A stretch of DNA of 64,000 bases, taken from Zygnema cylindricum. Its lineage: Eukaryota; Streptophyta; Zygnematophyceae; Zygnematales; Zygnemataceae. The translations under genes and the position numbers were made by a program. Positions within the stretch are counted from its first letter, which is position 1; every line of letters begins with the position of its first letter. Below, one piece after another: positions 9,690-41,733 of this stretch. The DNA lies in contig JBBHKE010001856.1 in NCBI GenBank assembly GCA_037447655.1, forward strand, positions 68,428 through 132,427. Direction: 5' to 3'. The notes below the pieces were generated by a model. The model saw only the letters and a program-made list of their open reading frames with translations, had not been told where the DNA came from and did not search any database.

Positions 9690-12363
9690 CCGCGTGGCTA
9701 CAAGATCCCCTTGCCGTACAAATCAAGATCGAGACAACGTTTTGAATCGTACAAAGCCGACTTCTTCCGCCACTCTTGCCATTCAACTCGACAAAACATT
9801 CACTTCTTCCTACCACTCCAGTCCAACAAACATGCTTGTCGCTTTCCTACCTTCGCTTCTCACGATACTCCTAATCGCCGTCGGATTCCATGCGGCCGTC
9901 GCGGATCTGCCGTACATCGTACAACTAGCTGGCCCGGCTCTGCCATTGGCCGTACAGCTGAATCCAGCTCTCCGCCAATCGGAGGCCGCAGTGCAGTCCT
10001 TCACCGCCGCTATGGTTTCACGCCAAAAGAAAGTTTTGGAGCGCATCGATGTACAGTGAGTGGCTTGAAATTCGCTCTCTTTGGATTGATAATCGCACAA
10101 CGCCAGACATTGAACATCGAACATGCAACATTGTGACATGAAATGTTGAAGGTTGAAATACTCGACATTTGTAAGAAATTTAAACTCACAATTAAGCATT
10201 AAAATTTTATTTTTTGAGCATGTTCGGTTTTACTTGTTAAAAACTGGAACATTGATGCCTCATTCTTCATAATGCTTGATCCAAATGTTTATCTCATGAT
10301 TTCAATGCTACAATTTTTTTTCCAAGTTTGGAGATTGGCTATAGGACGTTGAAACGAGCTTTGAGTGTTGCACATTCAAAAAAATAAAATAGATTTTGAA
10401 AATCAAAATTCGACATTGTAAAAACATGACAATGGGAATAGGACATTGAACATTTAAAATTGCAAAATGGACTTACAAAGTCGACGTACTTTCACTGGAA
10501 ATATCCGAGCAATAAATGAAGTGCATAGAGACATAATTGCCATCCTATAATGCCAATGTCTAAAATGTGATAATAATTGCCCTGAGGGTGATTCAAAACC
10601 AGAAAAAGGACACAGCTAAATCTCTTCCAAAAATGGAACGTTGAGAAATGAAGTTTCAGATAACAACAGATTTAAAAGGATGGATGGAACTGGATATGGC
10701 GATGATGACAATAGTGCAATGATGTCATTATGATTGAACATATTTTTTGGAAAAAGATGAAGTATTGAACATGAAATATGACAAAACAAAAAAGAACAGA
10801 ATAGACAGAAAGGGAACAGGTAGAATTAGTTGGAATTTGACATTGCCATTGATTATTGGAACCTGGGAACAAGACCATCTGTTTTTTATTCAAGGTTTGC
10901 GATTAAGTCGGAGTTGAAATGTGAGAGCTAATTGTCCGTTTAATAAGATTGCATCGAGGTGTTTTTGGTATATTTTGTTTTTTTGTAACTTTGTACATTT
11001 GTTTAACGGAAGGAAGAAGTCCAATGTTTCCATGACCACAGGCCAAAATTTCGTTTGTACCATTACGTAAATTCATTAAATGGGTTTGCGGCCATTCTTT
11101 CACCCGAGCAAGTGAAAGCGCTTCAAGGTGCATTTCTATCCTTTGATTTTGTTGACTTCACGATTCGGTATTTGTTGTATAAAAAAATAAATCACTTATC
11201 CCAATTTTTTTTTTTTTTTTTCTTTTCAAATTTTCTGTATGACATAAGTATTAACTGTTGAAATCACTAAATCAGTCCTTAAGTCCCACTTTGTACGTAT
11301 ATATCAGTTTTACTTGTGACATAGTCTTCACTATTTATCGAAGCTTTAAACGCTTTCTATGTCAAAATACCTCAATATACTTTAAGTCAAGACCTCGGTA
11401 GAGGGATCAAACTACCCACCCACTATCCAGCATCATTTTCTGTTCTGATTTTAATTTGTACTTTCTTGCATCCTTTCAATTTTTTGAACAGCAAATATAT
11501 TTACATAAATAAGATTAGGTTTCAAAAAACTTCATTTACAAGTCCAAAAAAATTATAGTCATTTGAGTAAAGCTAATATTTTTTCCCCATCTCTCTTTTC
11601 GCTGTAAACATCCTTGGACTTTTAACATCACCTAGCCATATGTAAACGGTGTGGAACATCGATTTCTCATGGGTAAGTGAAATCATTATAAAATCATTGG
11701 AAATCATTATAAAACTAAAATTCTCTTAACAACTGTAAAACCTTTGTCAAATTTCAATGTCTCACAAGTATTTTTTTGGAGCTGTTGGTTTACAGGAATG
11801 GATGACGTGGTTTCCGTAAAACGGGAGAACAGATATAAGCCTTTAACTACATATACCCCAAATTATTTGGGTTTGAACAATCCAAAAACTGATAATCCTC
11901 CAGGGCTTTACTCAAAAACAAATGGTTCGGGCATGATTATCGGCATTTTGGATACCGGTATGATAGTCAAAACTAAACCACTAAAAGTTGCGAACGAAGA
12001 AAAAAAAACAAAAAATTTCCAAGTTTGCTTCTTATTTCTTCGTTGATTGTGGTGCGCTTGATTATCATATTTTAGAGGTCCAGATGAGTCCAAATTGAGT
12101 GACATTTTTTTCGGTTTCGTTTTATCTGAAAGCTACTTTTTTGTTTTGAACGACCTCAGGAATCTGGCCCGAACATCGGAGTTTTAGTGATGTGGGAATG
12201 CCTTCGCGTCCGACAAAATTTAACGGAACATGTCAGACTGGTCAAAAATGGAAAAAAACTAATTGCAATAAGTAAGTATCTTTTTCAGCGCAAAACTTCA
12301 CATAAAAAAGTTCAATTCTACCCATCTCTACCTCCCTTTTTTACATCCCTACCTACCTCTTTG
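9690..12363 (+). repeat. Right arm of the large inverted duplication
   Basis: Partner of 4439-6668. It covers the region upstream of the subtilase start, exons 1-4 and part of intron 4. Exon boundaries are conserved between the arms; introns 1 and 2 differ by insertions and deletions. Confidence 0.9.
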
Positions 12364-15300
12364 TCAGTTCTCTATCTTTCTCTCCACAGGGTTGCAGACA
12401 ATCACTTTCCTTTAGTACAAGTGTGTTGCATTCTACTAATCTAGTTTTGCACTCTTTTTTAATGAAATAGATTTGAATTCGGGTCACTACATTGGCAACC
12501 AGATACTCGTCTATTGAGTGAAGAAGAGACCTCTATTGAGAGTGGCTGCTGTAGGTCATGTCCTTTTGCGCCTTCGGCCCCCCACGTTAAAAAGTTGTAT
12601 GCTAATATTTGCTACGGCTATTTATGTTTTGTCTAGATATTTAATTGTTAGAAGTACATTCCCTTTGTATGAAGTGATGATCTAGTGTGTGCCCAATGTT
12701 TAAGTGTGCTCAACAACTGTCCTTTTCCCTGTTGCGCTGTACAGCTCTGCCTAGAACATTTGTGTGCAGTTGACCTTTTTGGTGTGAAACCCCTATCTCA
12801 CCACCTCGCTTTTCAATTCCACTCTACCTCACCTTTTTCTCCATTTGTATCTCTCTCGTCTCTCCATCCCTTTTCCTCAACTTTACACCTCCCTTGTTCT
12901 TTTCCTCCACTGACCCGCTTTTTTTTTTGTATTTCTCGTCCCTACCATTTTTTGTCCACATCACCAACTCTACCTTTCCCCTCTCTCTACCTCGTCTATT
13001 TCACTTTAGCTACTTATCTCTTTACCCATCTCAACCTCTCCTTGTTCTCCATCTCGGCCTCGTCTTTTCCGGGCTTCACCTCTTTTTTCCCGGCTTCACC
13101 TCTCTTTGCCCGGCTTCACTTCTCTTTTCCCATCTCCACTCTCTATTTTCCCAACCCGCACTTCGCTCTCTTCCTCTCTTCCTCCTCCTCTCCCCCACAC
13201 TCAAAAGCCCAATGTGTATCCATCTTTTCCATTCCCATGAAATTATGAAATCCACCTTATTCTTACCTATTAATGTTGTTGGATCCAAATTGTTTTGCAG
13301 TAAAATTATCGGCGCTCGCTATTTTTATAAGGGTTTAGGAGATGACAATTGGCCTCCCGATGAATATCTCTCTGCTCGTGATGCTGACGGACATGGAACT
13401 CACACAGCCTCCACAGCCGCAGGATCTATAGTAAAAAACGTGACTCTGTCGGGATTGAATATAGGTCAAGCTCAAGGAATTGCTTATGGAGCTCATTTAT
13501 CCATCTATAAGGTAAGCACACTGTCAGAAATTCTGAAAAGCTATTTAACTAAGATGACAAAAATCGTAAACCAAATGACCAAAAACTGGTTTATAATGGC
13601 ATTCTTACATGGTTGAGCATGCATATACAAAAGTATACAATAATTATACAGTGTTCACATAAAATGAAGTATATAAAAACGAATATGCTATATATATATT
13701 TGTGGATACATAAATATCCGTGTATTCATATAAATATCCATTTGTAACATAGCGCATATATGAATATTTATATGTTTTTATATCCCTATATGTACATTTA
13801 TACATGTATATATACATGTATTTTCAAATATGCGCATATGTATTTATTTGAAGTTGAAGAACGCTTTTTCTGTTTACATACATTTTTTTTTCTTTATGAA
13901 GTTTTCTCAAAGTTTTTGGATCAGGAAATCGATTTACAAGGATACAGTTTTGATTAGTGAGCTTCTTTCTGTTTCCAAATAATTGGAGGTTTTTCATAAT
14001 CAAAGTAGTGTTTTTTAGCAAATAGAATACAAATTTTGATTCTTCTCGTCTTCTTTCCGTTTAATTTTTTTTTGCTTAACTTTTCCTTTTCCTTTTTCCT
14101 TTCCTATTCCATTGCTTTTTCCTTTCTTGTTCCTTTTCCAAAACTTGCTCCATTTATGTTCCTGGTATTTTCCTTCTTCTTTTCTTTTCCCATTATCTTT
14201 TCCTTCGATTACTTTTTCCTCGTATTTTTTTTTTGGTTTTCTCTCTTTTCATTTTTTTTTCTTTTCACTTTTGCTCTTCATTGATCGGAACCTTTTATTC
14301 CGTTACTTTTTCTTTCTCTTCCGTCCTTCTCCATCCCATTATCCTTATCCTTTGACCTTTACATCCCTTTCCTTTCCCTATTCTCCCCTTTTCTTTTGAT
14401 ATTTTTTTTCCTGGTTTGTTCGGTCGCCTTTCCTTGTCCTTTTCAATTCCTTTGCTTCCACTCCTTTTTTTGGACTTTTTTGTCATATTGTTTTTTAGGG
14501 TTTCACAAGGCTTTTGAAATTTCTCCATCTCCTTCCCTTTCTCACCCCCCTTCTCCTTCCCCTTCCCTTAACCTTTCCGCTTCCCCGTCACCTTTCCATT
14601 CCTTTTCTTTTCATCCCTTTTTTTTATTTTCAACTCGTTAATTAGAAAATTCCCTTTTTTTGCAGATTTGTTGGAGTATTGGATGCTCAGGATCTGACAT
14701 TTTGGCAGGCTTAGATGCTGCAATTAGCGACGGAGTTGATGTTATTTCGATGTCTTTGGGGCCATTTTTCGCACTTTACCCCTTTGATTCTGAAATTGAT
14801 CAAGGCACTTTGAACGCCGCGATTGCCGGAATTCCAAGTTCTCTTGCCGCCGGAAATTCCGGACCCTATTTGACATCTGTTTCGAATATATCTCCGTGGT
14901 ACATGTCAGTTGCGGCTAGCAGTTTGCCACGTCGGTTTATCAGTAAAACGAACTTGGGGAGTGGTTCCGAATTCAAAGTTAGTTTTCCCTTCACCTAAAA
15001 CCCCTTTTTTGTTTCCAGGGTTTATTTGTCATGGCAATGGAATGATAATTTTTTTACAGCATAAAAAACCCTTTCAATGTTTTGTCTGTTTAGAAAGTAT
15101 TCCAACTATTTCTTATATTATAACATTTGCTTAATATACCTATGATAAACATTTGGGGGAGCTCGAGGAAGGAAAGAGGGTGAAAGAGAGGGCGGGAGAC
15201 AGGGAGATTTAGATAGATAGTGAGAGGGAGAGAGGGAAGGAAAGAGTGAGAGAGCGAGAAAGAGTGGAGAGGATGAAAGAGAAGAGAAGGGAAAGGGGAA

Positions 15301-18300
15301 GAATGGAGGAGATGGTGGCAAAAAAGGGGAGAGAGAGGGGAAAGAGAGAGTGGGGAGTGAGGGTGGAAGAGAGGGAGAGAGTGAAAGAGATAGGGAGTTA
15401 ATAGAAGTAGAGCCAGAGGAAGCAGGAAAGAAAAAGAGAGGGGTGGAGAGGAAGGAGGGAGAGCAAGAGATAGAAACGGAGGGAGAGAGGGAGAAAAGAG
15501 AGTGAACAAAAAGAGGAAGAGAGAGAGGGGTAAAGAGGGAATTTATCATCAAATACCTTAAGACGTTATCAGATTAAAACTATACATTCATGTTGACATC
15601 TGATTTGTAAGATATCTTTGTAGAACAGGAAAGTCTGATACGGGAACACTTAAAAATACTCATTTTGCTCAGAACTTGCTTCAGAAAAATGAACGAAGTG
15701 TGCACATGTCACATCACGCCTCGCTTGTCATGTCACTCTTCGACAAAAATTTCATAGCCTTAAACTCAAATCCTTGAACTTTGACGTTGTATTATCGGCC
15801 CGAAATGTTGGAAATGAAAATGTCGAAAAATACATATGGTTCGAAACCTCTTAAATCATAGAGCTTGTTAACTTATATTGAAAAAAAGCTCTTCCGAAAA
15901 CCCCAAAAACCCCTTATATCATTAACAAAGTTTCTGTCATTTATTTGCCCAGGGTCTTGGATTGACCAACGGGACAGTGCCAGCTGGCACCAAAACACCG
16001 TTTATCCCGCTAATTTACGCGGGAAATGCGGCGTTAAAAAGCATTTCAGATAATGATCGAGCTAAGTAAGTAACATCAACAAACATTTTATAAAGTTTCA
16101 GATTATTCGTATATTTTGTGTTTATCAAAAGAGAAAAGACACGCGGTCATTGCAAAAAGAACTAGCGGAAAAAACATGGCATTGTCCCAAAAGGTTACTG
16201 CTGTAATTTTTTATATTATAAAAAACAAGAAACGGCCTTATTTACAATTTTTTCATGTCCTAGCATAAGAAGAAATTCTAATGTGACAAATATTTCAGTC
16301 GGTTTCTCTCTCTCCCTCACCCACTCCCTCTTTTCTTGTTGGATTGGCACGTGAAGCCGGTCCAATACGGGGTAGAATATGGAAATATCCATACTCGAGC
16401 CGCCCGTAATAAATGGGTACGGACCCGCCAGTCTCAACATCGAGCTGGTGGCACAGTGGTAGTGCGTTCGCAGCTGAAGTGAAAGGTCCCAGGTTCGAAC
16501 CCTGGCCGGCTCAATTTTCCCAAGTGTGGGACATGCCGAATCCCGGATTTCTAGGAAATCTAACATGGTATCGGAGCCAGCGGGATTGCGGATGGTTTGA
16601 CCGGCTTTCCCGTGAGGGGGGGTGTTGGATTGGCACGTGAAGCCGGTCCAATACGGGGTAGAATATGGAAATATCCATACTCGAGCCGCCCGTAATAAAT
16701 GGGTACGGACCCGCCAGTCTCAACATCGAGCTGGTGGCACAGTGGTAGTGCGTCGCAGCTGAAGTGAAAGGTCCCAGGTTCGAACCCTGGCCGGCTCAAT
16801 TTTCCCAAGTGTGGGACATGCCGAATCCCGGATTTCTAGGAAATCTAACATTTCTCTCTCTCCCTCTCTCTCTCCCTCTCTCACTCTCTCCCTCCCTCTC
16901 ACCGTCCCTCTCCTTCTCCCTCTCTCACTGTCCAACTTTCTCTCTCTCTCGCCCTCTACTTTTTTTTGTGTCTAAACATTGTTTCCTATATTTTTGCTCG
17001 GTGCAATTTCTCGACAAACTCCCTTTTTTGACCTCTTCTCAACTTTCTAATTAACTAATTGTTTTGTTGAATATGGGTCTGGTAGAGAATGCTTGGGAAA
17101 AACTCTCAACAAAACTATGGTTCAAGGAAAAATCGTCATTTGTGAGAATGCCGATGTGTATCAAGCCGAAATCTATGTGAAAAAATTGGGAGCTGCGGGA
17201 GTGATTTTTCGAGAAAGTTATCCTTCTGATACACATTCGACAGAGATACATGATTTACCGGCAAGTCATGTTGGTTTTTCGGACGGAAAGAAAATTTTAT
17301 CTTATGCAACTACAACAAAGTAAGTTTTCCATTTCTTTTTTCGCAGTTTTTTCTTTTTTGAACGAACTTTCTATCGAATTGTTTGTTTTGCATTTTAATT
17401 ATTGACCATCCCCTAGTTCACCAGATTACTTTCTCATAATTGTTTTGTTTCTTCGGATTTTTTTTGTTGTTGTCCTTTTTTTTGTGCATTTTTTTTATTT
17501 TTTTGGCAGAAACCCTAGAGCTTCAATTTCTAGTACGGTTACTACTTATAACGCAACTTCTCTAGTCGCCGATTTCTCCTCGAGGGGCCCAAATCCCTAT
17601 GCGGACATTATGAAGGTGAAAAACAAATATTGTGAAAGAGGTTTTACATTTGTAATTTATTTCTATCTGCATGTTTATTTAACTTTTCTGATTCAGCTGT
17701 CATTATTTGGCTTTTGTCTATCGTAAATGTCAGTTAGTTGAAATTAATTTCCATGTCTGAATTTCGCATATTTCCAACTTAGCGTTTATTGTTTTTCTTT
17801 TATCATTTCATAAACGCCGTATTCAAACCACCCAAACTTTGCGTCGTCGTTGGAGGTCTTAATTATGCAAGAAAATATTTAATGTTTTATCTTTCCTCTG
17901 CTTTTCTCGCGTTGAAATATCATACTACTGCTACTCATTCTACCACAACTAACACTACTAATAATAGCAACAATGACGATAATGGTGATATAACGATAAT
18001 AATGATAGAAGTTACAATTATAGTACTCATATAAGAAACCCTCCTTCCCTCTCCACCCCTCCCTCTCTTCCTCTCCCTCTCCCCTCGCCACCTTTTTTCA
18101 GCCTGATATTATTGCGCCCGGAGATTATATTTTGGCCGCCTTTCCCCCCAATGCGCCCTATCACATCCCAAAATCTGAGTTTGAAATACTAAGTGGAACT
18201 TCCATGGCCACTCCGCATGTGGCAGGAGTTTTAGCCCTTTTAAGATCCGGAAAGCCTAGTTGGAGTCCCGGAAGATTGTATTCTGCCATTGCAACTACGG

Positions 18301-20511
18301 GTATGCGAAACGAATAAAAATCAAAAAAATGAAAACATCACTATTTTCTTATTATTATTATTATTATTATTCACAATTATTAAATTGTTGGCATTATTAT
18401 GATTATTCGCGTTCTTTTTATTTTTGCAGTAGATGTATTTTTAGGGGACTATATTTCTTGCACTTGGAACAGTGGGTACGTAGTAAAAAAAAATTTTACA
18501 TTCTTGGTAGTTTATATTTATATTTTTTTTGTTCTAGAATGATATTAATGATGCCATTTAAGATGTGATATAACTCACTAGATATTTAAAATGATATTAA
18601 AATGGAACTTGAATAAATTTAAACATAAACTCTAATAAATCAAGGAGACGGGTAAATAATCGCTAGTCGCAGTGATAAATACTAAACAATTCATTGATAT
18701 TTGATATTTTTGGCATGCAAGAATTCTCTCGAGAATTAACAAGCGTCAACTTTATGAAAAGCTTGATGTCTCACAAAACTTGTATGTTAGAGAAAAAAAG
18801 TATGGACTTTTACATTTGTAGAAAGTTAATTCACTTCTACCAACTTCAACTTCCATATTGATTCATTCCATTTCCTTTCTTTTGATTCATTTCTTTTTTT
18901 TTCGTTTACTATTTTGTTGCAGCCTCACCTTTATCAGCAGGGAATGCCTTAGATTTTGGAAATGGTCTTTTAAGACCTAACTTTGCACTAGATCCGGGTC
19001 TTGTTTACGACACCGGAATACATGGATACATTCTTTACCTCTGTAATTTTCTTACAGCTTCATCAATCAAAAAGAAATTCGGTATGTCTTGCCCAAAATA
19101 TAAAAGCACCTTCCATTATAATTCACCCTCTCTTATGATGACTGAAGTGAAAGGAGTCGGTTTCACGACGACTCGAAAAGTCACAAATATGGGTCCAGCG
19201 AATTCTACCTATGTGGTTGAACTACAACAACCGAAAGGAGCAAATGTTACTATTTATCCAACTACTTTGGTATTCACAAAAGAAAAGCAATCGTTGACCT
19301 TTACAATCAAAGTTGTGGGAACGGCCATCACACAAAATGGAAAAACTGGTGAGTTTATATTGGGGTATTTATAGGCTGTTTGAGTATTATGGTCACAGAA
19401 AAACACAAGTGAAGTAACTTACCTGTTTATTATGGTCGCAGATAAAAGGAGCATATATATTTTCTCTAGTGTGGTATAGGTGGTTTGATAATTTTCGTCA
19501 CGTTAAACACAAATTATTGGTAGGTTTTTGAGAGTGTATATGGTTAATTCTTTCTGTCACAAAATGAGAGCGTAAATGTGATTTAAAATTTATTTCGCGC
19601 AATGTTGAGTGATTATATAATCTTTTTGGAAAGACGATTCACCAAAGGTAAGTTTCTCTGTTTTGGCAGTTTTTTCTTATTAGGAAAAGATCAAAAGGGC
19701 ATGTCACGGGGTGCATTTGGCAGTTAAGTCACAATTTATTTATTTTTCAATCAAAGCCAATTAAGTGAAGATGTTCAAAACAATTTAAATGGGTTATTCA
19801 TATTTTCGCGTATTATTTCCATCCAAAATCACAGTGAACAAAGAACCTAACAACCTTATCTGGAAAATATAATTGGATTAAGTTATGACTAACGGATAGG
19901 AAAAAAAAACAAAAAATGTTTGTCTTAAAATGATTATACTGAAAGCAGAATAGTTAAAAATAAATGTAACGGACCTTATACAATTTTTTTTAGCTAATTA
20001 CTGAAAAGTATGGCGTTTTCCGTCTTTATTGTTTTCAAAAATGTACAGTTGGTTTCTTTGCTTCACCGAACAAAATAGTTATATGATATATAATACCAAT
20101 TTAGAAAAGAAATAGAAAAACCGTAGAGCACCTTTTCTTTTGTAATTTTATTATAAATAAGATATTCACTTGGCCAGAGTAGAGGAATTCATGGACAGCC
20201 GTATGATAATTTGCAATTTGTTTAAAGGGATCTAATAAGAATATCGTCTGAGAAGTCTCTATAAATAAAATTACATTTAAAATAAGGAAAGACCATCAAG
20301 AAAGGAGAAACCCTTCATTTCAAGATCCAATTCTCAAGACTAACAAGATATTGTATTACCAAATAGAAATTAACTTTCAAGACAATTTTTTTTTTTTTTT
20401 TTGTACCTTTCAGGTAACTATGCTTTTGGGAGGTGGATATGGAAATCAACGGATGGAAAGTACAGCATACCGAGTCCTATAATGGTGAACATTGTTGGGG
20501 TTCCCAAATAA
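9832..20511 (+). CDS. Plant-type secreted subtilisin-like serine protease (subtilase, S8A), multi-exon
   Basis: Exons: 9832-10055, 11042-11127, 11796-11957, 12160-12271, 13301-13511, 14666-14977, 15953-16065, 17086-17319, 17510-17615, 18102-18300, 18923-19348, 20414-20511. All introns are GT-AG, phases match throughout, and there is no stop before TAA at 20509. The product has 760 residues, normal for the family. Domain order: signal peptide (about 1-24, MLVAFLPSLLTILLIAVGF), inhibitor I9 propeptide (to about 110, with NGFAAILSPEQVKAL), catalytic domain, protease-associated insert (about 370-480), and a C-terminal fibronectin-III-like domain ending in a SPIMV motif. Catalytic residues: Asp156 in ILDTG (11951), His226 in GHGTHTASTAAG (13392), Asn329 in AAGNSGP (14855), Ser554 in GTSMATPHVAG (18201). 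The start was chosen at the signal peptide; an in-frame ATG at 9694 would bury it. Likely a secreted, cell-wall or apoplastic protease; the substrate is unknown. Confidence 0.95.
12822..13200 (+). repeat. Pyrimidine-rich tract in subtilase intron 4
   Basis: A C/T-rich stretch contains degenerate tandem units such as CCCGGCTTCACCTCT near 13068-13130. The long open frames over it are composition artefacts. It precedes the exon 5 acceptor at 13300. Confidence 0.8.
14036..14640 (+). repeat. About 600-bp polypyrimidine tract in subtilase intron 5
   Basis: An almost purine-poor run of TTTTCC-type words fills the second half of the intron, ending just before the exon 6 acceptor at 14661-14665. It encodes nothing recognisable. 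Such tracts can form triplex structures; whether it affects splicing is not shown. Confidence 0.85.
15165..15541 (+). repeat. About 380-bp polypurine tract in subtilase intron 6
   Basis: A nearly uninterrupted G/A run (GAGAGAGGGAGA-type words) on the transcribed sense strand, the reverse polarity to the tract in intron 5. The Ser/Leu/Pro-rich open frames on the other strand are artefacts of this composition. Confidence 0.85.
16442..16513 (+). ncRNA. tRNA-like cloverleaf inside the TRIM 5' LTR
   Basis: The 72-nt segment folds as a full tRNA. The acceptor stem GAGCTGG/CCGGCTC is 7 bp with one G-U. The D arm is GCAC/GTGC with loop AGTGGTA. The anticodon stem TTCGC/GTGAA is 5 bp with one G-U, and the T arm CCAGG/CCTGG is a perfect 5 bp with loop TTCGAAC; A is at the discriminator position. 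Box A TGGCACAGTGG and box B GGTTCGAACCC match the Pol III consensus. The anticodon loop (AGCTGAA) lacks the universal U33, so it is probably not a working translational tRNA. It is better read as a tRNA-derived internal promoter. Confidence 0.8.
16728..16798 (+). ncRNA. tRNA-like sequence inside the TRIM 3' LTR
   Basis: Copy of the sequence at 16442-16513, with one T deleted at the D-arm/anticodon-arm junction (GCGTTCGC to GCGTCGC). Box A and box B are unchanged. Confidence 0.75.
16851..16960 (+). repeat. CT-rich microsatellite in subtilase intron 7
   Basis: TCTCTCTCCCTC-type repeats directly follow the TRIM. Similar CT sequence precedes it at about 16304-16336, so the TRIM inserted into a CT tract. 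Confidence 0.85.
18430..18471 (+). other. Possible 42-nt cassette exon of the subtilase
   Basis: Between exons ending at 18300 and starting at 18923, this segment has an acceptor (TTTTTGCAG) and a possible donor (GTGGGT). It is open in the phase of the gene and a multiple of three long. Including it adds 14 residues (VDVFLGDYISCTWN-like) between the catalytic Ser region and the SPLSAGNALDFG segment, giving 774 residues. Skipping it leaves the gene equally open. Many plant subtilases have a short variable stretch at this place, so both forms are plausible. Confidence 0.45.
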
Positions 20512-22168: not shown

Positions 22169-23105
22169 ATGTTGCCATCTTTGGTAACACACGCTTCCTT
22201 GCTTGGGGCAAACGCTTTCCATTCATTTTTTCTTCTTTTCACACTGTATAAAAAATGGCATACCCGCGGAGGTGTTGCTTTTGGGAAACCATCTGAGCGA
22301 TCGGAGGAATCCCCCGCAGCCACAGATAGATTTGTCCTAGCGCAGGCAATCACTAGAGGGACACTGAGATAGATCACAAAGGTATAGATAGGATATTGAG
22401 AGAGGAATAGAGAGGATACAATCACATCAACATTAGAATAGACAAGATAGTTGCAATTCAGCTTATGATAGAAGAACTAGTCAAGGGGTCACTTAGCGAA
22501 AGCTAAGGTGATCCCCCAAAGAGATTACAATGAAGTTCAGACACTTGTAATCCCTAATCTCAACTGAGACTAAAGCTGAGTTCTTAACTACTCTCTAATC
22601 TAATCTGTACACTGAATGTAATGATATGAAATGTCTTTGGAAGTCTACACTCTTGCACTCACTAAATGATGTATGACAAAGTGTTATCTTCTGAAAGCTT
22701 CTCCTGTGCATCATAAGCCCTATGCTTTGATTCCTTAAGCCTTAATGAGATGCTTGCCTTACATGCCCATTTATCCTTTCTGAATGCATCTGTGGTGATG
22801 TGCTTAATGGAGTGGTGGATTGTGGTCCAATGGATGAATGGCATGTGTCTTGGTGTACTCCAAAAGTGTGTCCAATGAGAACACTCGGTTTTGTCCTCTG
22901 GTGATTTCCCGTTGGAAATTGTCACATGTGACGTCCTGTCACATATCGGTACTGTAGTCCCGATTTTGGTGTATACTTGGTCAAATATCGGTTTGCTAAC
23001 AATATCGCCGAAGCCAATATATCGCTGATGGTACTGCTGTCCCATATCGCCTCGAATCGTCCGTCTCGGCATAAATTGGTATCGCGTGAAGTCGTACTTT
23101 TCAAC

Positions 23106-23408
23106 ACTCCCACTCGAATTCAGTGCGGTACCGATTTCACTTGATGTTTTAGATTTGAAACGTCGTTTCGCTTTCCAAAGGGTCTTTGTCGTGCTGTCCT
23201 TTTCATTATGGAAGTAGTTTGTACCTTCGTCACCATTTCGAATATGCGTGACGTCGCGGTCAGACTTCCTGTAAACTTCCTGGAATTTAACAAGCGACAA
23301 TTCGATTGGACCACGTTGTGTCACGTTGAATTGCGTCGATGGCGGACTGACACCTGTGACTGTACCAGTCGACCGAACCTGTACTTGCCTTGCTGTAATG
23401 GTTATCAT
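23106..23408 (-). CDS. Small downstream ORF overlapping the Gag-like ORF stop
   Basis: The stop of the long ORF and a following ATG overlap as TGATG (23410-23406), the arrangement used for termination-reinitiation in some elements. The downstream frame (MITITARQVQVRSTGTVTG...) stays open to the 3' LTR and continues through it to 22662, about 248 codons in total. Only about the first 100 codons are internal to the element. No homology was recognised; it could be chance. Confidence 0.3.
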
Positions 23409-26400
23409 CACCTCGTCCGTCGGATTTTTTGGATTACATTTGATCGAGCGCCTCTGCCGCGCTGCTGGATCGTACCCTCGAAAGACGATGTTGTACCCTT
23501 GGAAATTGCCGAACCTTGTTCTGAACCTTCTCCAGCTGTACTTAGGTTAGCTCCTTCAAGCCTCCTCTTATCTTGTATTTTGTCACCTGTGGGACAAAAA
23601 TTGTTAGTTTTCTCCTTCTCTGCTTTTTCTTTTCTTGCAGATTTCCTTCTTGCAGACTCCTCTTTCTTTGCTGAGTCCTTCTGTGAGTGATTAAACATAG
23701 AAGTCCTTCCATTCTCTTTCGAATTGGACTCGCCTCCACCTGTTTTAATCAATATCTTCTCTTTATCCAGAAATTCTGTACGCAGAATTTCACCTGTGTG
23801 AATGCTCCCACTCCCTGCTTCCGCTGCCATGTCTGGGTGTTGCTCTTTGTCCTTCGGCTCTGGAAGACTTTCTTTGGTGGCCGGATTTTGAAAGCATTGA
23901 GGTAAGTTCCCTTGAGTTTGCTCCTCGTATTTGTTCTCAAGCATGTTCATCGCTGCATTTTTCCCACTGAAATCCGCTAGCAATGCATCCTTAAATGTCC
24001 TAAATTTCGTTTTCCCGCCTTTTTCCTGCTCTTCCTTCACCAATGTTTCTGACATCCTGATATTGTGTGCAGACTGAGTTGATGTGGTCAGCTGATTGAC
24101 GGATTTCGGAGTGATGGACTTCGCTTCTCCCACTATCTTTGTGCTCTCTTGCTTGATATGGTAAGTTTTGATCTGTCCCCTCCCTTTATCCTTGACATTT
24201 GCAGAAATTGGGTTGCATTGCTGTTTTGTGACTTCTATTGGAAGAGTTTCAGAATTCCTCCTTCCACTTTTCTCCATCTTACAAAATCTGATTGTTTGTA
24301 AGGACTCTCTATTGTGCAGAAAATGCCTCTTGTCTGGACCATTTTCTACCATGGATGAATTCTGTCCATCCGGATTCTCAATCTGCTCCTTCCTTGCTTG
24401 AAGTGTGGAGCCTTGAGTTTCAGTCGCCTCCTTGAGACCTTCTCCATCCTCTAAATATTTTTCTGGTCTCCTTGGTAAGTTCACCTCTCCCTTTTCTATC
24501 GAAACACTGGTGTTTTCCCTTTCCCTAAGTGAGTTTCTGAGTATTCTACCAGCTGCATTTTTGTCACATTTGCAGTTGTCTTTCTGTCTCCTCTCAAGTC
24601 TTTGATGTGTCTTTGGGGAGTCTTTTGCTAGCTTGCTAGCTACACCATGATTGCTAATCATTTTCTGTGTTTTGATTTCTTGCAGGTTTTGTGAATTCCT
24701 AGGTTTTGAGACGTGATTGTGGGATGTTTGTGGATACATGTGTGGAGAGGGGAAATGAGGGATGCCATTGACTTTTGTGAAACTCTTGCTACTCCTTGCA
24801 TGTTTCTTTTGTGGTAAGTCATTGTGACAATCCTCTATCTCTTTGTCTACTCTCCCACTATCTTGCATCGCTTTCAGTTTGAGTTCTCTATCATTTTGGT
24901 TGACCTTAACTCCTGCTGTTTCTGATGCATCACCATTACTCTTTTGTGATACCCATCCACCTATTACGTGTCCACTACTACTTCCGCTGCATGATAGTTG
25001 TGTGTTGGCCTCTAGAAGTGGGTTTTGTTTTTCTGACACCTGATTATTACTCTGATCATTTCCGTGGACTTTGCCTTTCTGTTGTGGCAGGTGCACAACC
25101 TTTGGGGAGATTTTGAGAGGGTCCTTGTCGGAGGTTTCGTCTGGAGTTTGGTACTTTTGATCGTCTCGTGTGGATACAACAATGTAACCCTCGTTGACCG
25201 ATTTCAGGTTCACGCCTTTTGGTGAGCACCTTATGCTCCCCTTTGGGTCGCTTCGACTCCTCCCACTGAATTGTGACTCCGTGAACTTAGTTCCATTGCT
25301 CCTTTCTTTCTGTTCCCAGCAAGTCCCAAAAATTGTCTTACCGTGTAAAGCGGTGTTAGTATGTTTTTCTGCTCTTGTAGCCATGCTTCTGCTTGCATTG
25401 CAAATTCTCTCCTTACTGTCATTACAGATTTTGTCCATGCTCTCGTTGCAGATTCTGACTTTGGAATAGGAATGTTTCCCAGCCAGCTGGTTTCTAATGT
25501 CCACAAGTTTTCTTGCCATTTTCAGATTGGCGTTCCGTGAACCCAGCTGTCCTCTTTGTTGTGGAAGATCTTCCTTGTTGAGTTTTGCATTCCTGTCCTT
25601 CCAACTTCCATTGCCCTGGTGAGTTGCCTCTATCTTAGAGTCTACTGTGTTGCCCTTGTTTGCTGTTGAGCTGGCTATGGGTTCTCCTTTGATCTCTAGC
25701 CTGACAACTATTTCTGGTGATCTCTGAGCCGTCCTAGTTGAGTGGATGCCCTGATCTCTCTTGTTGTGACTATTGGTCCTTTGTGGTTGCTCGTGCCTTT
25801 GTGACTTATCTGACTCATCTTTCTGCCCTGTTTGACCTATTGTTACATGCAGATCATGAGTGAAGATCTGTGGGGAGGTGCCCGTTGTTGCATCAGAGTT
25901 TGTCAAAACTCCATCTCTTTGTGGCCCCCTTTCGTCATCTGTTGCACCTGCACCTACACAATGGTGAGTCTTAACCTGAGTGTCTTGTTTATCTGCTCCT
26001 CTGAGGGGCAGATTCTCCTTGCACCTGTTGTTGACTGCTTCCCATGTGTCCTTTGCTGCTGATTTGAAGCTCTGTCTGCACTTTGCTGACTCCTTCATTT
26101 TCCTGCAGCTTTTGTAAGTAATATCAATTACTTTCGATGTGGCAGGGACCTTGATTCTCTGTGATCTGTCCTCACCATCTTTTGCTTGGTCGTTTTTGAC
26201 ATTCTCCTTCTCGTTGCTGTTTGCAGGATTTGCGACCTTTGTCGCGCACCTCGCATTGCTGGTTGGTTGAGGGCATGTTGACTTCTTGAGGATCTTGAGA
26301 CGGTATAGTCTGTCGCCTCTTCTCTCTCCTTCCGCCAGTAGCAAACCGTTTCTGGTAAGCTCTACTTTCCCGTTTTCCCAATTAGAAGAGATGCCAATGG

Positions 26401-27052
26401 TTTCGGCTTGACAAATAGAATATATGTTATGGAGTGAGTCTGGAACAAAATGGACGTTTGTGAGGGTTCTCTCTAGCTTTTTCCCTTTTACTACGACGTC
26501 TATGGTGATGTTGCCTATGCCTTGAGCTAGGAGGGTCCTACCATCTACCATCAATGCTCGTTTGGGTGATATGCTTTTGAAAGATGTAAAGTGTTCTCTC
26601 GTGAATGTTATGTGTGTTGGGGTAGTAAGGTCTATGATCCAGTCATGATCTAGAGGTTTTGTGTTGGAAACTGTCATTGTGTTTAACATTTCTCTCCCTC
26701 TCTCTGTGGCTGTTTCCCTATCCCCTTCCGCTCGTTTGTGGCGTGAGGCCAGTGCCTCCCACACAATCCATGAGTTTCTCAACCTCACCATTTCTGCCAG
26801 TTCGGGATCCGCTCGATGATCTTTGAATTGGCTTATGATTATCCACTTTGCTTGAATCTCTCTTAGATCCCAGATCTCCATTGAATCATTCTCATCTTTT
26901 GTCTCTGTTCCCTTTGATCCAGGAACAGTCCGCAGCTCCTCTCGGGTGACAATTCCCAAGAGGCTTCTCTCCTCGAGCAATCTGGTCACTCGTATTCTCC
27001 ACTCTTCGAAGTCCCGTACCTTGAACCTATCTAATGGCCCAAGTGGGCCCAT
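23408..27052 (-). CDS. Long Gag-like ORF of the nonautonomous LTR element (about 1,214 aa)
   Basis: The ORF is uninterrupted. Starting at the ATG inside the primer-binding site gives about 1,214 residues; the frame stays open 27 codons further into the LTR (to 27133). Residues about 1-120 look like a copia Gag N-terminus (RDFEEWRIRVTRLL, then an IVWEALASRH-like block). A copia protease-like region follows (WIIDLTTPTHIT), where the catalytic D-S/T-G reads D-L-T, so protease activity is unlikely. The remaining 900 or so residues are hydrophilic, rich in Lys, Ser, Asn, Gln and Glu, with few hydrophobic segments. They look disordered and match nothing I recognise. The C-terminus has KKEESARRKSARKEKAEKEK-type charged sequence. 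It may be structural or RNA-binding. Confidence 0.75.
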   Translation of the reverse strand: MGPLGPLDRFKVRDFEEWRIRVTRLLEERSLLGIVTREELRTVPGSKGTETKDENDSMEIWDLREIQAKWIIISQFKDHRADPELAEMVRLRNSWIVWEALASRHKRAEGDRETATERGREMLNTMTVSNTKPLDHDWIIDLTTPTHITFTREHFTSFKSISPKRALMVDGRTLLAQGIGNITIDVVVKGKKLERTLTNVHFVPDSLHNIYSICQAETIGISSNWENGKVELTRNGLLLAEGERRGDRLYRLKILKKSTCPQPTSNARCATKVANPANSNEKENVKNDQAKDGEDRSQRIKVPATSKVIDITYKSCRKMKESAKCRQSFKSAAKDTWEAVNNRCKENLPLRGADKQDTQVKTHHCVGAGATDDERGPQRDGVLTNSDATTGTSPQIFTHDLHVTIGQTGQKDESDKSQRHEQPQRTNSHNKRDQGIHSTRTAQRSPEIVVRLEIKGEPIASSTANKGNTVDSKIEATHQGNGSWKDRNAKLNKEDLPQQRGQLGSRNANLKMARKLVDIRNQLAGKHSYSKVRICNESMDKICNDSKERICNASRSMATRAEKHTNTALHGKTIFGTCWEQKERSNGTKFTESQFSGRSRSDPKGSIRCSPKGVNLKSVNEGYIVVSTRDDQKYQTPDETSDKDPLKISPKVVHLPQQKGKVHGNDQSNNQVSEKQNPLLEANTQLSCSGSSSGHVIGGWVSQKSNGDASETAGVKVNQNDRELKLKAMQDSGRVDKEIEDCHNDLPQKKHARSSKSFTKVNGIPHFPSPHMYPQTSHNHVSKPRNSQNLQEIKTQKMISNHGVASKLAKDSPKTHQRLERRQKDNCKCDKNAAGRILRNSLRERENTSVSIEKGEVNLPRRPEKYLEDGEGLKEATETQGSTLQARKEQIENPDGQNSSMVENGPDKRHFLHNRESLQTIRFCKMEKSGRRNSETLPIEVTKQQCNPISANVKDKGRGQIKTYHIKQESTKIVGEAKSITPKSVNQLTTSTQSAHNIRMSETLVKEEQEKGGKTKFRTFKDALLADFSGKNAAMNMLENKYEEQTQGNLPQCFQNPATKESLPEPKDKEQHPDMAAEAGSGSIHTGEILRTEFLDKEKILIKTGGGESNSKENGRTSMFNHSQKDSAKKEESARRKSARKEKAEKEKTNNFCPTGDKIQDKRRLEGANLSTAGEGSEQGSAISKGTTSSFEGTIQQRGRGARSNVIQKIRRTR

Positions 27053-27962
27053 AACCTGTTGCTTTTGGGAAACCATCTGAGCGATCGGAGGAATCCCCCG
27101 CAGCCACAGATAGATTTGTCCTAGCGCAGGCAATCACTAGAGGGACACTGAGATAGATCACAAAGGTATAGATAGGATATTGAGAGAGGAATAGAGAGGA
27201 TACAATCACATCAACATTAGAATAGACAAGATAGTTGCAATTCAGCTTATGATAGAAGAACTAGTCAAGGGGTCACTTAGCGAAAGCTAAGGTGATCCCC
27301 CAAAGAGATTACAATGAAGTTCAGACACTTGTAATCCCTAATCTCAACTGAGACTAAAGCTGAGTTCTTAACTACTCTCTAATCTAATCTGTACACTGAA
27401 TGTAATGATATGAAATGTCTTTGGAAGTCTACACTCTTGCACTCACTAAATGATGTATGACAAAGTGTTATCTTCTGAAAGCTTCTCCTGTGCATCATAA
27501 GCCCTATGCTTTGATTCCTTAAGCCTTAATGAGATGCTTGCCTTACATGCCCATTTATCCCTTTCTGAATGCATCTGTGGTGATGTGCTTAATGGAGTGG
27601 TGGATTGTGGTCCAATGGATGAATGGCATGTGTCTTGGTGTACTCCAAAAGTGTGTCCAATGAGAACACTCGGTTTTGTCCTTTGTCAGATGATTTCCCG
27701 TTGGAAATCGTCACATGTGACGTCCTGTCACATATCGGTACTGTAGTCCCGATTTTGGTGTATACTTGGTCAAATATCGGTTTGCTAACAATATCGCCAA
27801 AGCCAATATATCGCTGATGGTACTGCTGTCCCATATTGCCTCGAATCGTCCGTCTCGGCATAAATTGGTATCGCGTGAAGTCGTACTTTTCAACAGGAGG
27901 ATCGCAAATTGACAGGACAAAAAGAAATACCGTCACAAAGCTAAATTTCAAGGTCTTGGTTG

Positions 27963-28798: not shown

Positions 28799-28985
28799 TG
28801 TGGTCGGTTCATACTGGAAAAACCCAAAATAATTGGATAAGGACTCACCATGCTCAACATCGAGTTGGTGACACACTCGTTCGCCCATTCAGAGTAAATG
28901 AAATGTCCCAAGTTCAAGCCCTTGCCGATTCAATTTTCCCTAGTATGGGACATGCGGAATTCAAGATTCTGCAAAATTTCCAACA
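28799..28985 (+). repeat. Degenerate solo LTR of the TRIM family
   Basis: From GGTCGGTTCATACTGG to TTTCCAACA it aligns with the TRIM LTR from position about 18 to its end. That includes the CATCGAGTTGGTGACACA acceptor/box A region, GTCCCAAGTTCAAGCCCTTG (degraded T arm/box B) and TAGTATGGGACATGC. The first bases and any partner LTR are missing. Substitutions are frequent, so it is old. Confidence 0.75.
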
Positions 28986-37427: not shown

Positions 37428-38020
37428 TGTTGGATTAGCATGTAAATGCCGGTTCAATTCCGTGTGTAATGTTGTACACACACTATCGAAGCCGCCCGAA
37501 ATAGATAGGTACGGACCCGCCAGGCTCTACATCGAACTGGTGGCACAGTGGAGCTGGTGGAACAGTGGTTAGTAGATTGACAAATTAAGTCAAAGGTCCC
37601 AGATATGATCCCTGGCCGGGTCTATTTTCCTAGAGTAGAACATGCGAAATCTTGGATTTCACTAAAGTCTATCATGGTATCGGAGCCAGCGGGATTGCAG
37701 ATGGATTGACCAGCCTAATCAGCCTCCCCGCGACGGGGGGGTGTTGAATTGGCACTTGAATTCCGGTTCAAAATGGGGTGTTATCACGTACGCCACACTC
37801 GAAGCAACCCAAAATAAACGGGTACGGACCCGCGTGGCTCTACATCAAGCCGGTGGCACAATGTGGTACGCCCACAATCGAAGTCGCCCAAAATAAATGT
37901 GTATGAACACGCCTGGCTCTACATTGAGTTGGAGCACGGTAGAAAGTGCGTTGATTTCTTAAGTCAAAAGTCTTACCAGTGGAACATGCCAAATCCCAGA
38001 TTTCACGGAAATCAAAAGCA
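37428..38020 (+). mobile_element. Old, rearranged TRIM, copy 2
   Basis: The 5' LTR (37428-37674) starts TGTTGGATTAGC. It is followed by primer-binding site TGGTATCGGAGCCAGC at 37675, a 67-bp interior and a polypurine tract GCGACGGGGGGG. The 3' LTR starts TGTTGAATTGGC at 37742 and runs to about 38020. Both LTRs have internal duplications: an 18-bp repeat of the box A region (GTGGCACAGTGGAGCTGGTGGAACAGTGG) in the 5' copy, and a ~75-bp repeat in the 3' copy. The tRNA-like part is degraded. No target duplication was identified. Confidence 0.82.
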
Positions 38021-39647
38021 TAAATCCGTCGTGTCCACAATCAAATTAGCGAGTGAGGAAGAATAAATATGAGAAATGGTGAAAGATGACGAATGAGTGT
38101 TAAAGTTCAAAATATTTAGAGTTGCGTTGCTCGGGAAAAGCCGTGAACGAGATGTAGTTAAGCAAGCTGTCTATGAAGGAAAAAGTTTTCATCACCTTTA
38201 TCAATAAGAAATTCAGAAGACTAAATCTCATCCACCTCAAAGTCTAAGCACCGAGCAGGTGCAAATGCGGTGTATAGTTATGGAGGGTTCAACAGAATGC
38301 GTAGAAGACCAATCAATAACATCCAAACCCTAATTCCTTACGCTAACTCAATGTCTATAACTAACTTGCTGCCCAACAAGAAAAGATTGTACATCTGGCA
38401 GCAAGTTCAAAGAGAAGCAAAAAAAGAGAAAGAAAACAGGCGGTTTTATAAAGGAATCTCAGAGAAAAGAGGAAGGCACAAAAAGAAGGGTTTAGGGGAG
38501 AAACAAAGCTTAGAGAAGAGGAGTGGAGTGTACATATTGCTCTCCTTGGAAATGAACCAAACTTTCAAAAATTTGGCCTAGGCTAGTGAGGAGATACGTT
38601 CACTTGCTTACACCTCACTATAGATTCTCTAAGTGAATTAAGCGACGCACGCGAAATGGAGTGGACCTTACAGTCTCAAGTGGACAAACTATCACCGTTG
38701 GTACAACTAGTAGTGTTTCTTTAAACTTACTCATGAGGGACCGCTATAGAAATGAATCTATATCGGAAGCAAGATTCTTGAATATCTATTAAATTTTGGG
38801 CGGTTTAGTAACTCTACTTACTTTACTGTAAATCCAACGCAATAGTGGCAACAAAATCGCTCAGGCGATTCCTTGATTTTGCATGTATGGAGTGGAGGGC
38901 AAATTAAACCGCAAAAGCGAAGTCACCCATTCGATGCACAATTGACTTTTATGTAGGAGGTAGAGGAAAAATGCTCCACCATGAACATTCTACATCAAAT
39001 CTTGAAACTAAAAGGAGATTTGGCATTATGATATCGAATGTGTCATACAACTAAGGATAATTTGGGGAGGAATGTCAAAACGACACGCGTAAAGGGATTC
39101 AACCTTAAAACAAACCGAAAAGTGAATGGATGTGATAGATGTAGTCAAATTCGACAAATTCGGAAACATCATCCAACAAACGATGTGAAATTTAGCCCAA
39201 CATCCACCGAGCTTTATGAATAAAAAAAAATCAAAACTCCACCTCATCCAACTCCGAGACCAAGCACCACCTGGTGCACATGCGGCATCCACTTATAGAG
39301 GGTGCAGCGGATCGGTGGAAGAGGAACCTATGAACATCCATACCCTTAATCCTAACCCTATTTCAATGTCCATAATAAACGGGCATATGTCACATTGTGT
39401 GCCATTAATTTGAGTTAAATGCAGCAAAATTGTGGCACATGTACGACGATAGACATATGTATTATAATCTATTCAATATCCACAGCACTTAGTAGCTTAT
39501 GAAATTAGATTAAATTAGAGGCTGTAATTATTTTTTTTCAAGAGAATGTATACCACTTGATTCTTCTCCAAGCTGAATCAAACAAAGTTTTTTTGCAAAG
39601 TTTCATGAATGATTGATAAAATAAGGGAAAAAAATAACAATGAAACT
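38021..39647. other. Intergenic stretch with a diverged repeat pair
   Basis: No gene recognised. About 38246-38365 and 39262-39378 are related: both carry CA(C/A)(C/A)TGGTGCA/AGGTGCAAATGCGG, a TTATAGAGGGT/TTATGGAGGGT block and ACCCTAATTCC/CCTTAATCC followed by TCAATGTC.ATAA. They lie about 1 kb apart in the same direction, as would old LTRs or tandem units, but no internal retroelement sequence was recognised between them. Confidence 0.45.
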
Positions 39648-41220: not shown

Positions 41221-41271
41221 TGTTGATTTCCGAGAAATTTGGGATTCTGTATATCCAAAACTAGGGAAATG

Positions 41272-41344
41272 TGAGCCGGCCAGGGCTTGAACCTGGGACC
41301 TGTGACTTGAGCTATCAGCGCACTAACCACAGTGCCACCTGCTC
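41272..41344 (-). ncRNA. tRNA-like sequence in TRIM copy 3 (3' LTR)
   Basis: 73 nt. The acceptor stem GAGCAGG/CCGGCTC has one mismatch. The D arm GCAC/GTGC and T arm CCAGG/CCTGG are intact, with loop TTCAAGC. The anticodon arm is weaker than in copy 1. Box B is close to consensus; box A has A to T at one position. Confidence 0.65.
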
Positions 41345-41557
41345 GATGCAGAGCCGGGCTAGTCTGTACATATTTCTTTTAGGCGGGTTCAAGTGTGACG
41401 TATCACATTCTACCCCGTATTGAATCGGCATACACGTGCCAATCCAACACCCCCCCTCACGCAAAGGCCGGTCACACCATCCGCAACCCTGCTGGCTCTG
41501 ATACCATGTTGATTTCCGAGAAATTCGGGATTTGGTATGTCCCAAACTAGGGAAATG

Positions 41558-41630
41558 TGAGCCAGCCAGGGCTCAAACCTGGGACCTCTGACTTGAGCTA
41601 TCAGAGCACAAACCACTGTGTCGCCAGCTC
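41558..41630 (-). ncRNA. tRNA-like sequence in TRIM copy 3 (5' LTR)
   Basis: The same 73-nt unit in the other LTR. Acceptor GAGCTGG/CTGGCTC and T arm CCAGG/CCTGG are retained, with box B GGTTTGAGCCC. The D arm is altered (GACACAGTGGTTTGTGC). Conservation of stems despite LTR divergence suggests, but does not prove, selection. Confidence 0.6.
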
Positions 41631-41733
41631 GATGCAGAGCCGTGTGTCCGTACCTATTTCTTTTAGGCGGGTTCAAATGTGACGTTTCACATTCTATCCC
41701 GTATTGAGCCGGCATTCACGTGCCAATCCAACA

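Follow-up and report, generated by a model that had tools for sequence, protein, structure and literature searches.

A 514-bp Helenus-type TRIM with a tRNA gene-like unit, probably a Pol III promoter, in both long terminal repeats

Can RNA polymerase III (Pol III) drive a long terminal repeat (LTR) retrotransposon, and is the fold of a tRNA important there beyond its two promoter boxes? Both questions are opened by an element at positions 16337–16850 of a 64,000-nucleotide stretch of contig JBBHKE010001856.1 (hereafter, the window). The element is a complete terminal-repeat retrotransposon in miniature (TRIM) of 514 bp, real and recently active, with a tRNA-like unit in each of its two LTRs. 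We consider it probable that it is a Helenus-type TRIM ("TRIMp3"), a non-coding LTR retrotransposon of 0.5 kb in which the tRNA gene-like Pol III unit serves as the LTR promoter. Its basic parts are the following:

16332–16336, unstranded: left target site duplication, TTTCT, read from the sequence
16337–16565, forward strand: 5′ LTR of 229 bp, TGTTGG...CTAACA
16566–16622: interior of 57 bp, with the primer binding site (PBS) and the polypurine tract (PPT) at its ends
16566–16580, forward strand: PBS, TGGTATCGGAGCCAG
16614–16622, forward strand: PPT, GAGGGGGGG, a G run adjoining the 3′ LTR
16623–16850, forward strand: 3′ LTR of 228 bp
16851–16855, unstranded: right target site duplication, TTTCT, read from the sequence

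The anatomy is directly supported: as in TRIMs generally, there are two LTRs, a total length below 1000 bp, no coding capacity, and an interior bounded by a PBS and a PPT. The sole difference between the 5′ and 3′ LTRs is one T missing from the tRNA unit of the latter. When TGGTATCGGAGCCAG is set against what we take to be the complement of the 3′ end of the plant initiator methionine (iMet) tRNA, 14 of 15 positions match, and by eye the match to the LTR's own tRNA is poorer. The preliminary description of this DNA, which reported a complete TRIM with a TTTCT duplication, a one-base LTR difference, a 57-bp interior, an iMet-type PBS and a PPT, was correct to the base in all these points.

The tRNA-like units and the signals around them are arranged as follows:

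16407–16414, forward strand: A/T-rich TAATAAAT, spanning −35 to −28 relative to the tRNA unit, putatively TATA-like or poly(A)-signal-like
16435–16437, forward strand: CAA, −7 to −5 from the tRNA unit, where Pol III may start, by analogy with plant tRNA genes
16442–16513, forward strand: tRNA-like unit of the 5′ LTR, a cloverleaf called Gln(CTG) by ARAGORN, with G where U33 is expected
16449–16459, forward strand: A box TGGCACAGTGG, read from the sequence by eye
16467–16483, forward strand: anticodon arm, its stem with compensatory changes between subfamilies A and B (see below)
16492–16502, forward strand: B box GGTTCGAACCC
16515–16518, forward strand: TTTT directly after the tRNA unit of the 5′ LTR, a possible Pol III terminator
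16728–16798, forward strand: tRNA-like unit of the 3′ LTR, Gln(CTG) by ARAGORN, one T lost from the anticodon stem
16800–16803, forward strand: TTTT after the tRNA unit of the 3′ LTR, where a Pol III genomic RNA may have its 3′ end

A covariance-model search, which the preliminary description had proposed as a check on its claim of a 71–72-nt cloverleaf in each LTR, bore that claim out: the Rfam tRNA family RF00005 scored 53.6 bits on the 5′ unit and 46.3 bits on the 3′ unit, against a gathering score of 29. No other Rfam family, 5S included, reached its threshold in the window. A chance tRNA match was considered and rejected, as ARAGORN found no tRNA when the 5′ LTR was dinucleotide-shuffled 20,000 times. 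The minimum free energy fold of the isolated 5′ unit is the cloverleaf, at −26.1 kcal/mol. Its acceptor and T stems had both been called perfect, which is true of the T stem; the acceptor stem is fully paired with one G-U pair. The T arm presumably resembles that of the iMet tRNA.

We searched the assembly (352.8 Mb in 2689 contigs) with this first copy and obtained at least 51 matches, with 40 of 969 first-look candidates scored; most of the matches listed were full-length and 98–100% identical, and 39 loci with close copies were examined (subfamily A). A search with a second window copy, at 41221–41733, gave at least 44 matches, with 40 of 809 candidates scored, and 20 loci were examined (subfamily B). 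Past mobility is directly evident from TG...CA ends and short target site duplications of fixed length, the signature of LTR-retrotransposon movement. A perfect 5-bp duplication surrounds 29 of the 39 subfamily-A loci, four of five bases agree in 2 and fewer in 7, and the remaining locus (L018) is an array with both outer ends missing; the corresponding figures among the 20 subfamily-B loci are 11, 2 and 7. Identical LTRs occur in six two-LTR copies of subfamily A and in three copies of subfamily B, so that subfamily B, with its perfect duplications, is young too. The other two-LTR copies in the genome measure 508–519 bp, and a primer site of the TGGTATCNGAGC type is present in 17 of the 20 subfamily-B loci. 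No TRIM match was found in 200 kb of sampled sequence on long contigs already known to carry copies, no exact match to two LTR patterns in viral contigs, and none in plasmid records.

Six of the 39 subfamily-A loci (L012, L015, L018, L021, L039 and L046) are tandem arrays of 3–5 LTRs that repeat every ~286 bp. In five of them one perfect duplication bounds the whole array, as if the array had inserted as such, although it may instead have grown by unequal exchange or template switching; in L018, two of the four LTRs are partial.

The tRNA unit, its B box and the TTTT that follows it are retained throughout this material. ARAGORN calls a tRNA in 84 of 87 full subfamily-A LTRs (82 Gln, 1 Ser, 1 His) and in 39 of 42 subfamily-B LTRs (38 Glu(CTC), 1 Gln), and TTTT follows the unit in 82/87 and 37/42, respectively. 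The boxes had been described as near-consensus; for the B box this holds, its core GWTCRANNC being present in 84/87 subfamily-A and 42/42 subfamily-B LTRs. Subfamily-A LTRs also keep the CAA leader (78/87) and the A/T stretch TAATAAAT (86/87). Among 23 LTRs of ten loci from both subfamilies, 20 reached the Rfam threshold, at 47.2–56.9 bits. We give practically no weight to the idea, in whose favor nothing was found, that the TRIM is an annotation artefact, made of two tRNA genes or of a short interspersed nuclear element (SINE) flanking or nested in an unrelated repeat, because dozens of copies, each with its own duplication, carry the unit at one constant LTR position.

The high tRNA scores and the TTTT would also fit a functional host tRNA gene, the TRIM supplying extra tRNA-Gln or tRNA-Glu, but this is very unlikely. 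A functional tRNA gene would have the canonical U33 and a stable isotype; here G replaces the near-universal U33, A stands at position 32, and the anticodon changes from CTG in subfamily A to CTC in subfamily B. Furthermore, in a genomic tRNA search in which 63 of 24,620 candidates were scored, 55 of the 63 matches listed had 64.8 bits or more, the best reaching 73.9, versus the 47.2–56.9 bits of the LTR units. The element shows once again how such TRIMs fill tRNA annotations with false genes, in this case predicted Gln(CTG) and Glu(CTC).

Is the tRNA fold itself conserved? The commonest units of subfamilies A and B are seven substitutions and one indel apart. The preliminary description had asked for compensatory changes across genomic copies, and these are present: the anticodon stem carries five of the substitutions, the only ones located in stems, and each of them preserves pairing (T-A to C-G, C-G to G-C and G-U to A-U, with two pairs altered on both sides). 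Under a simple random model, five stem changes left all 21 pairs intact in 0.34% of trials (0.0034), and in 1.8% of trials (0.018) when the changes were confined to the anticodon stem. Pooled over 64 distinct units, a count that leaves out one truncated 53-nt unit, pairing was found in 1274 of 1338 cells, compared with 324–491 of a similar total when the partners were slid by one or two positions. Taken from these comparisons, the tRNA fold appears to be kept beyond the promoter boxes. Since the anticodon stem lies outside the A and B boxes, this points to retention of the fold in its own right, or to renewal of the whole unit from a tRNA-like sequence. To our knowledge, this is the first sign of compensatory upkeep of a tRNA fold in such an LTR.

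A fold kept in this way might act as an RNA structure, with the unit serving, alongside or instead of a promoter role, as an R-region tRNA mimic that aids the stability or export of the RNA, or its packaging by the particle of the partner. The LTR and the predicted RNA (16435–16803) are indeed more stably folded than their shuffles (z of −4.17 and −4.15, respectively). We regard such a role as possible, if the less probable reading: the absence of U33 and the differing anticodons leave no translational role, and the limits of the subfamily comparison set out below count against it as well.

Three further hairpins are seen in the LTR fold, at 16337–16367, 16378–16393 and 16545–16561 (LTR positions 1–31, 42–57 and 209–225). 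Subfamily A has TATGGA/TCCATA in the middle one, where subfamily B has TGTGA/TCACA, and the last changes its loop between the subfamilies and keeps its stem. RNAalifold, run on the five window rows, predicts the first of them and not the middle one.

Returning to the Helenus-type TRIM with a Pol III promoter, we infer a life cycle from the arrangement of these parts. TFIIIC and TFIIIB would bind the 5′ LTR at its A and B boxes, and Pol III would initiate just upstream of the tRNA unit, at ~16435. The weak TTTT of the 5′ LTR would be passed in part of the rounds, and transcription would stop at the TTTT of the 3′ LTR (16800–16803). The resulting RNA would measure 369 nt; ~84 nt, including the tRNA-like unit, would be present at each end. 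Such an RNA would partition the LTR into a U3 region (the first 98 bp), an R region formed by the tRNA and a U5 region (the last 47 bp). The iMet tRNA would prime at 16566, the first strand would jump via R, and the G tract would prime the second strand, after which the integrase of a separate autonomous LTR retrotransposon would insert the copy with a 5-bp duplication. As to the flanking signals, plant tRNA genes carry downstream T runs of at least 4 in 67–73% of cases and CAA within 10 nt upstream in 36–45%, according to the consulted portion of PMC11700998. The Pol III transcription suggested in the preliminary description holds up as a likely interpretation, being supported by the TTTT, the kept B box and the compensatory stem changes across copies, and it has established parallels in the 5S unit of Cassandra and in Helenus (PMC10886601).

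Several observations weigh against this interpretation. The comparison of the tRNA units involves two subfamilies and no broad phylogeny, and the five window units by themselves give modest support, with 3 double-change pairs, a number reached by 36 of 500 shuffles. RNAalifold on these five units prefers a rod over the cloverleaf, and in the subfamily-B unit the rod lies 0.2 kcal/mol below the cloverleaf. Both LTRs of L095 and one of the five in L021 miss the Rfam threshold. Of the parts measured within subfamily A, variation is highest in the T arm, where the B box lies (0.0135 substitutions per site, versus 0.0075–0.0085 in the larger regions); this rate is not a fair test of selection, because the copies were chosen for similarity. 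As for the promoter elements, the strict 12-mer A box TRGYNNARNNGG occurs in 0/87 subfamily-A and 0/42 subfamily-B LTRs; by eye, an 11-mer form can be fitted if the D loop is shortened by one base. Subfamily B has TAC in place of the CAA leader and so lacks the CAA at −7. A full-length RNA needs read-through, because some or most Pol III should terminate at the TTTT of the 5′ LTR. AATAAA at 16409–16414 is equally readable as a poly(A) signal of RNA polymerase II (Pol II). Finally, an autonomous partner was not found in the window, where the three TGGTATC-type PBS matches all belong to TRIM copies.

Some of these points would suit an ordinary Pol II TRIM, in which the tRNA unit is a passenger from the insertion of a SINE or a tRNA gene and is copied because of its location in the LTR. 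The AATAAA and the CAA leader missing from subfamily B are in keeping with such an origin, as are the TG...CA ends and 5-bp duplications, which are ordinary. The substitution rate of the tRNA unit is also not lower within subfamily A, at 0.0085 per site versus 0.0075–0.0082 in the rest of the LTR, and these close copies show no sign of selection after insertion in their substitution rates. They are the copies most like the query and therefore show activity, not selection. A passenger should decay, yet almost every LTR examined retains the B-box core and the TTTT, and compensatory changes keep the fold between two young subfamilies. We thus hold the passenger explanation to be rather unlikely and favor the Helenus-type TRIM with a Pol III promoter.

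Regarding the partner that the Helenus-type TRIM would need, 36 loci amounting to 256 kb contained one PBS-like match outside the TRIM copies (L048), which has no adjoining LTR end and looks like chance. Six repeat pairs in the window could be LTRs when inspected by eye: one is followed by GGTTATGGGCCC, three by near variants of it and two by unreadable sequence, and none by TGGTATC. GGTTATGGGCCC looks complementary to what we take to be the anticodon arm of the iMet tRNA, which would make it a half-tRNA primer site and not a 3′-end one. Because the readable window LTR pairs show this anticodon-type site or near variants, the helper probably belongs to another lineage. Several Copia elements, apparently nested, lie at 22273–27895 and 39643–63091 (Pfam domains RVT_2, Pol_BBD and gag); GGTTATGGGCCC follows the LTR of the first, near variants occur in three further pairs, and there are 9 occurrences of GGTTATGGGCCC in the 256 kb.

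How does the element relate to known TRIMs? The preliminary description held that no TRIM bearing a tRNA had been described, and proposed looking for an existing family of that kind. Such a kind exists: TRIMs with tRNA-derived sequence in their LTRs were named Helenus in 2024, and TRIMp3 was proposed for TRIMs with Pol III promoters (Kojima 2024, PMC10886601). Its consulted portions list one plant family, Helenus-1_SMo of Selaginella moellendorffii, with an LTR of 120 bp and an interior of 85 bp. They also describe 5-bp duplications in plants and fungi and tandem arrays in one fish family, and state that Helenus inflates tRNA annotations, that most families are unable to encode a tRNA (with 7 bivalve and 15 fungal families as exceptions), and that most fungal families use an anticodon-loop PBS. 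Pol III transcription is called unproven there, and multiple origins are argued (PMC10886601).

The present element is a Helenus because the tRNA-derived sequence in its LTRs fits this definition, and our best reading is a new plant-type Helenus family, unusually well preserved. The likeness to published Helenus covers a non-coding LTR element below 1 kb, a tRNA-derived unit in both LTRs, a PBS and a PPT, 5-bp duplications as in the plant and fungal families, tandem arrays and an inflated number of predicted tRNA genes. From Helenus-1_SMo, it is set apart by an LTR of 229 bp and an interior of 57 bp, compared with 120 and 85 bp. It would also differ from most Helenus families, as portrayed there, in that its cloverleaf is intact and changes compensatorily, though with a non-canonical anticodon loop. 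Unlike the anticodon-loop site ascribed there to most fungal families, its PBS is of the tRNA 3′-end type.

Other systems share single traits with it. Cassandra is a plant TRIM bearing a 5S unit in its LTRs (consulted portions of PMC7215508 and PMC10853983); as described there, it resembles the present element in that both LTRs carry a Pol III gene unit and tandem arrays share one LTR per repeat, but its Pol III unit is 5S rRNA and here it is a tRNA. A hidden Cassandra-type 5S unit was rejected, as only tRNA reaches the Rfam thresholds in the window. The nemertean TRIM Ajax likewise has a presumed Pol III promoter in its LTR, but differs in its 5S fragment and animal host in the available account (PMC10886601). 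tRNA-derived SINEs are also short and non-autonomous with an internal tRNA-type Pol III promoter; LTRs, PBS, PPT and 5-bp duplications belong to the present element only. Ordinary plant TRIMs and small LTR retrotransposons (SMARTs) resemble it in size, LTR layout and tandem arrays, and share the iMet-type PBS. A survey of plant TRIMs found tandem arrays to be common, and no word beginning with "tRNA" occurs in the text examined of that survey (PMC4717578). By title and abstract, no other tRNA-bearing TRIM was recognized in the literature searched, which left most subscription papers and preprints outside; among the papers listed there, the names Helenus, and TRIMp3 in the TRIM sense, were met in PMC10886601 only.

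The element adds a plant-type host, probably other than S. moellendorffii, along with two young subfamilies. Helenus has so far been known from sequence comparison, and two young, compensatorily differing subfamilies in one genome make a direct test possible.

Besides the element at 16337–16850, the window contains three more, older copies:

28810–28968, forward strand: fourth copy, an LTR fragment
37428–38023, forward strand: third copy, old and rearranged, with a PBS at 37675 and a duplication inside the tRNA unit
41221–41733, reverse strand: second copy, full-length, with 79% identity to the first, nearest to subfamily B and flanked by the duplication TGAGC

In the second copy, Rfam matches a tRNA in one LTR of the two (39.7 bits, 41272–41344), and it matches none in the third or fourth copy; ARAGORN calls no tRNA in the second and third copies. 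In the third copy, the 5′ part of the tRNA unit is partially duplicated at 37551–37623.

The surroundings of the first copy, at 11000–19400 of the window, look like an intron-rich, plant-type subtilase gene with T/C-rich introns. Since stretches reading as exons of this gene flank the element on both sides, it probably lies in an intron. Another protein search gave short hits to plant, bacterial and unnamed entries. The best 120 subtilase relatives listed show 33–39% identity and are spread over many plants, with none close among them; the match to S. moellendorffii has 36% identity.
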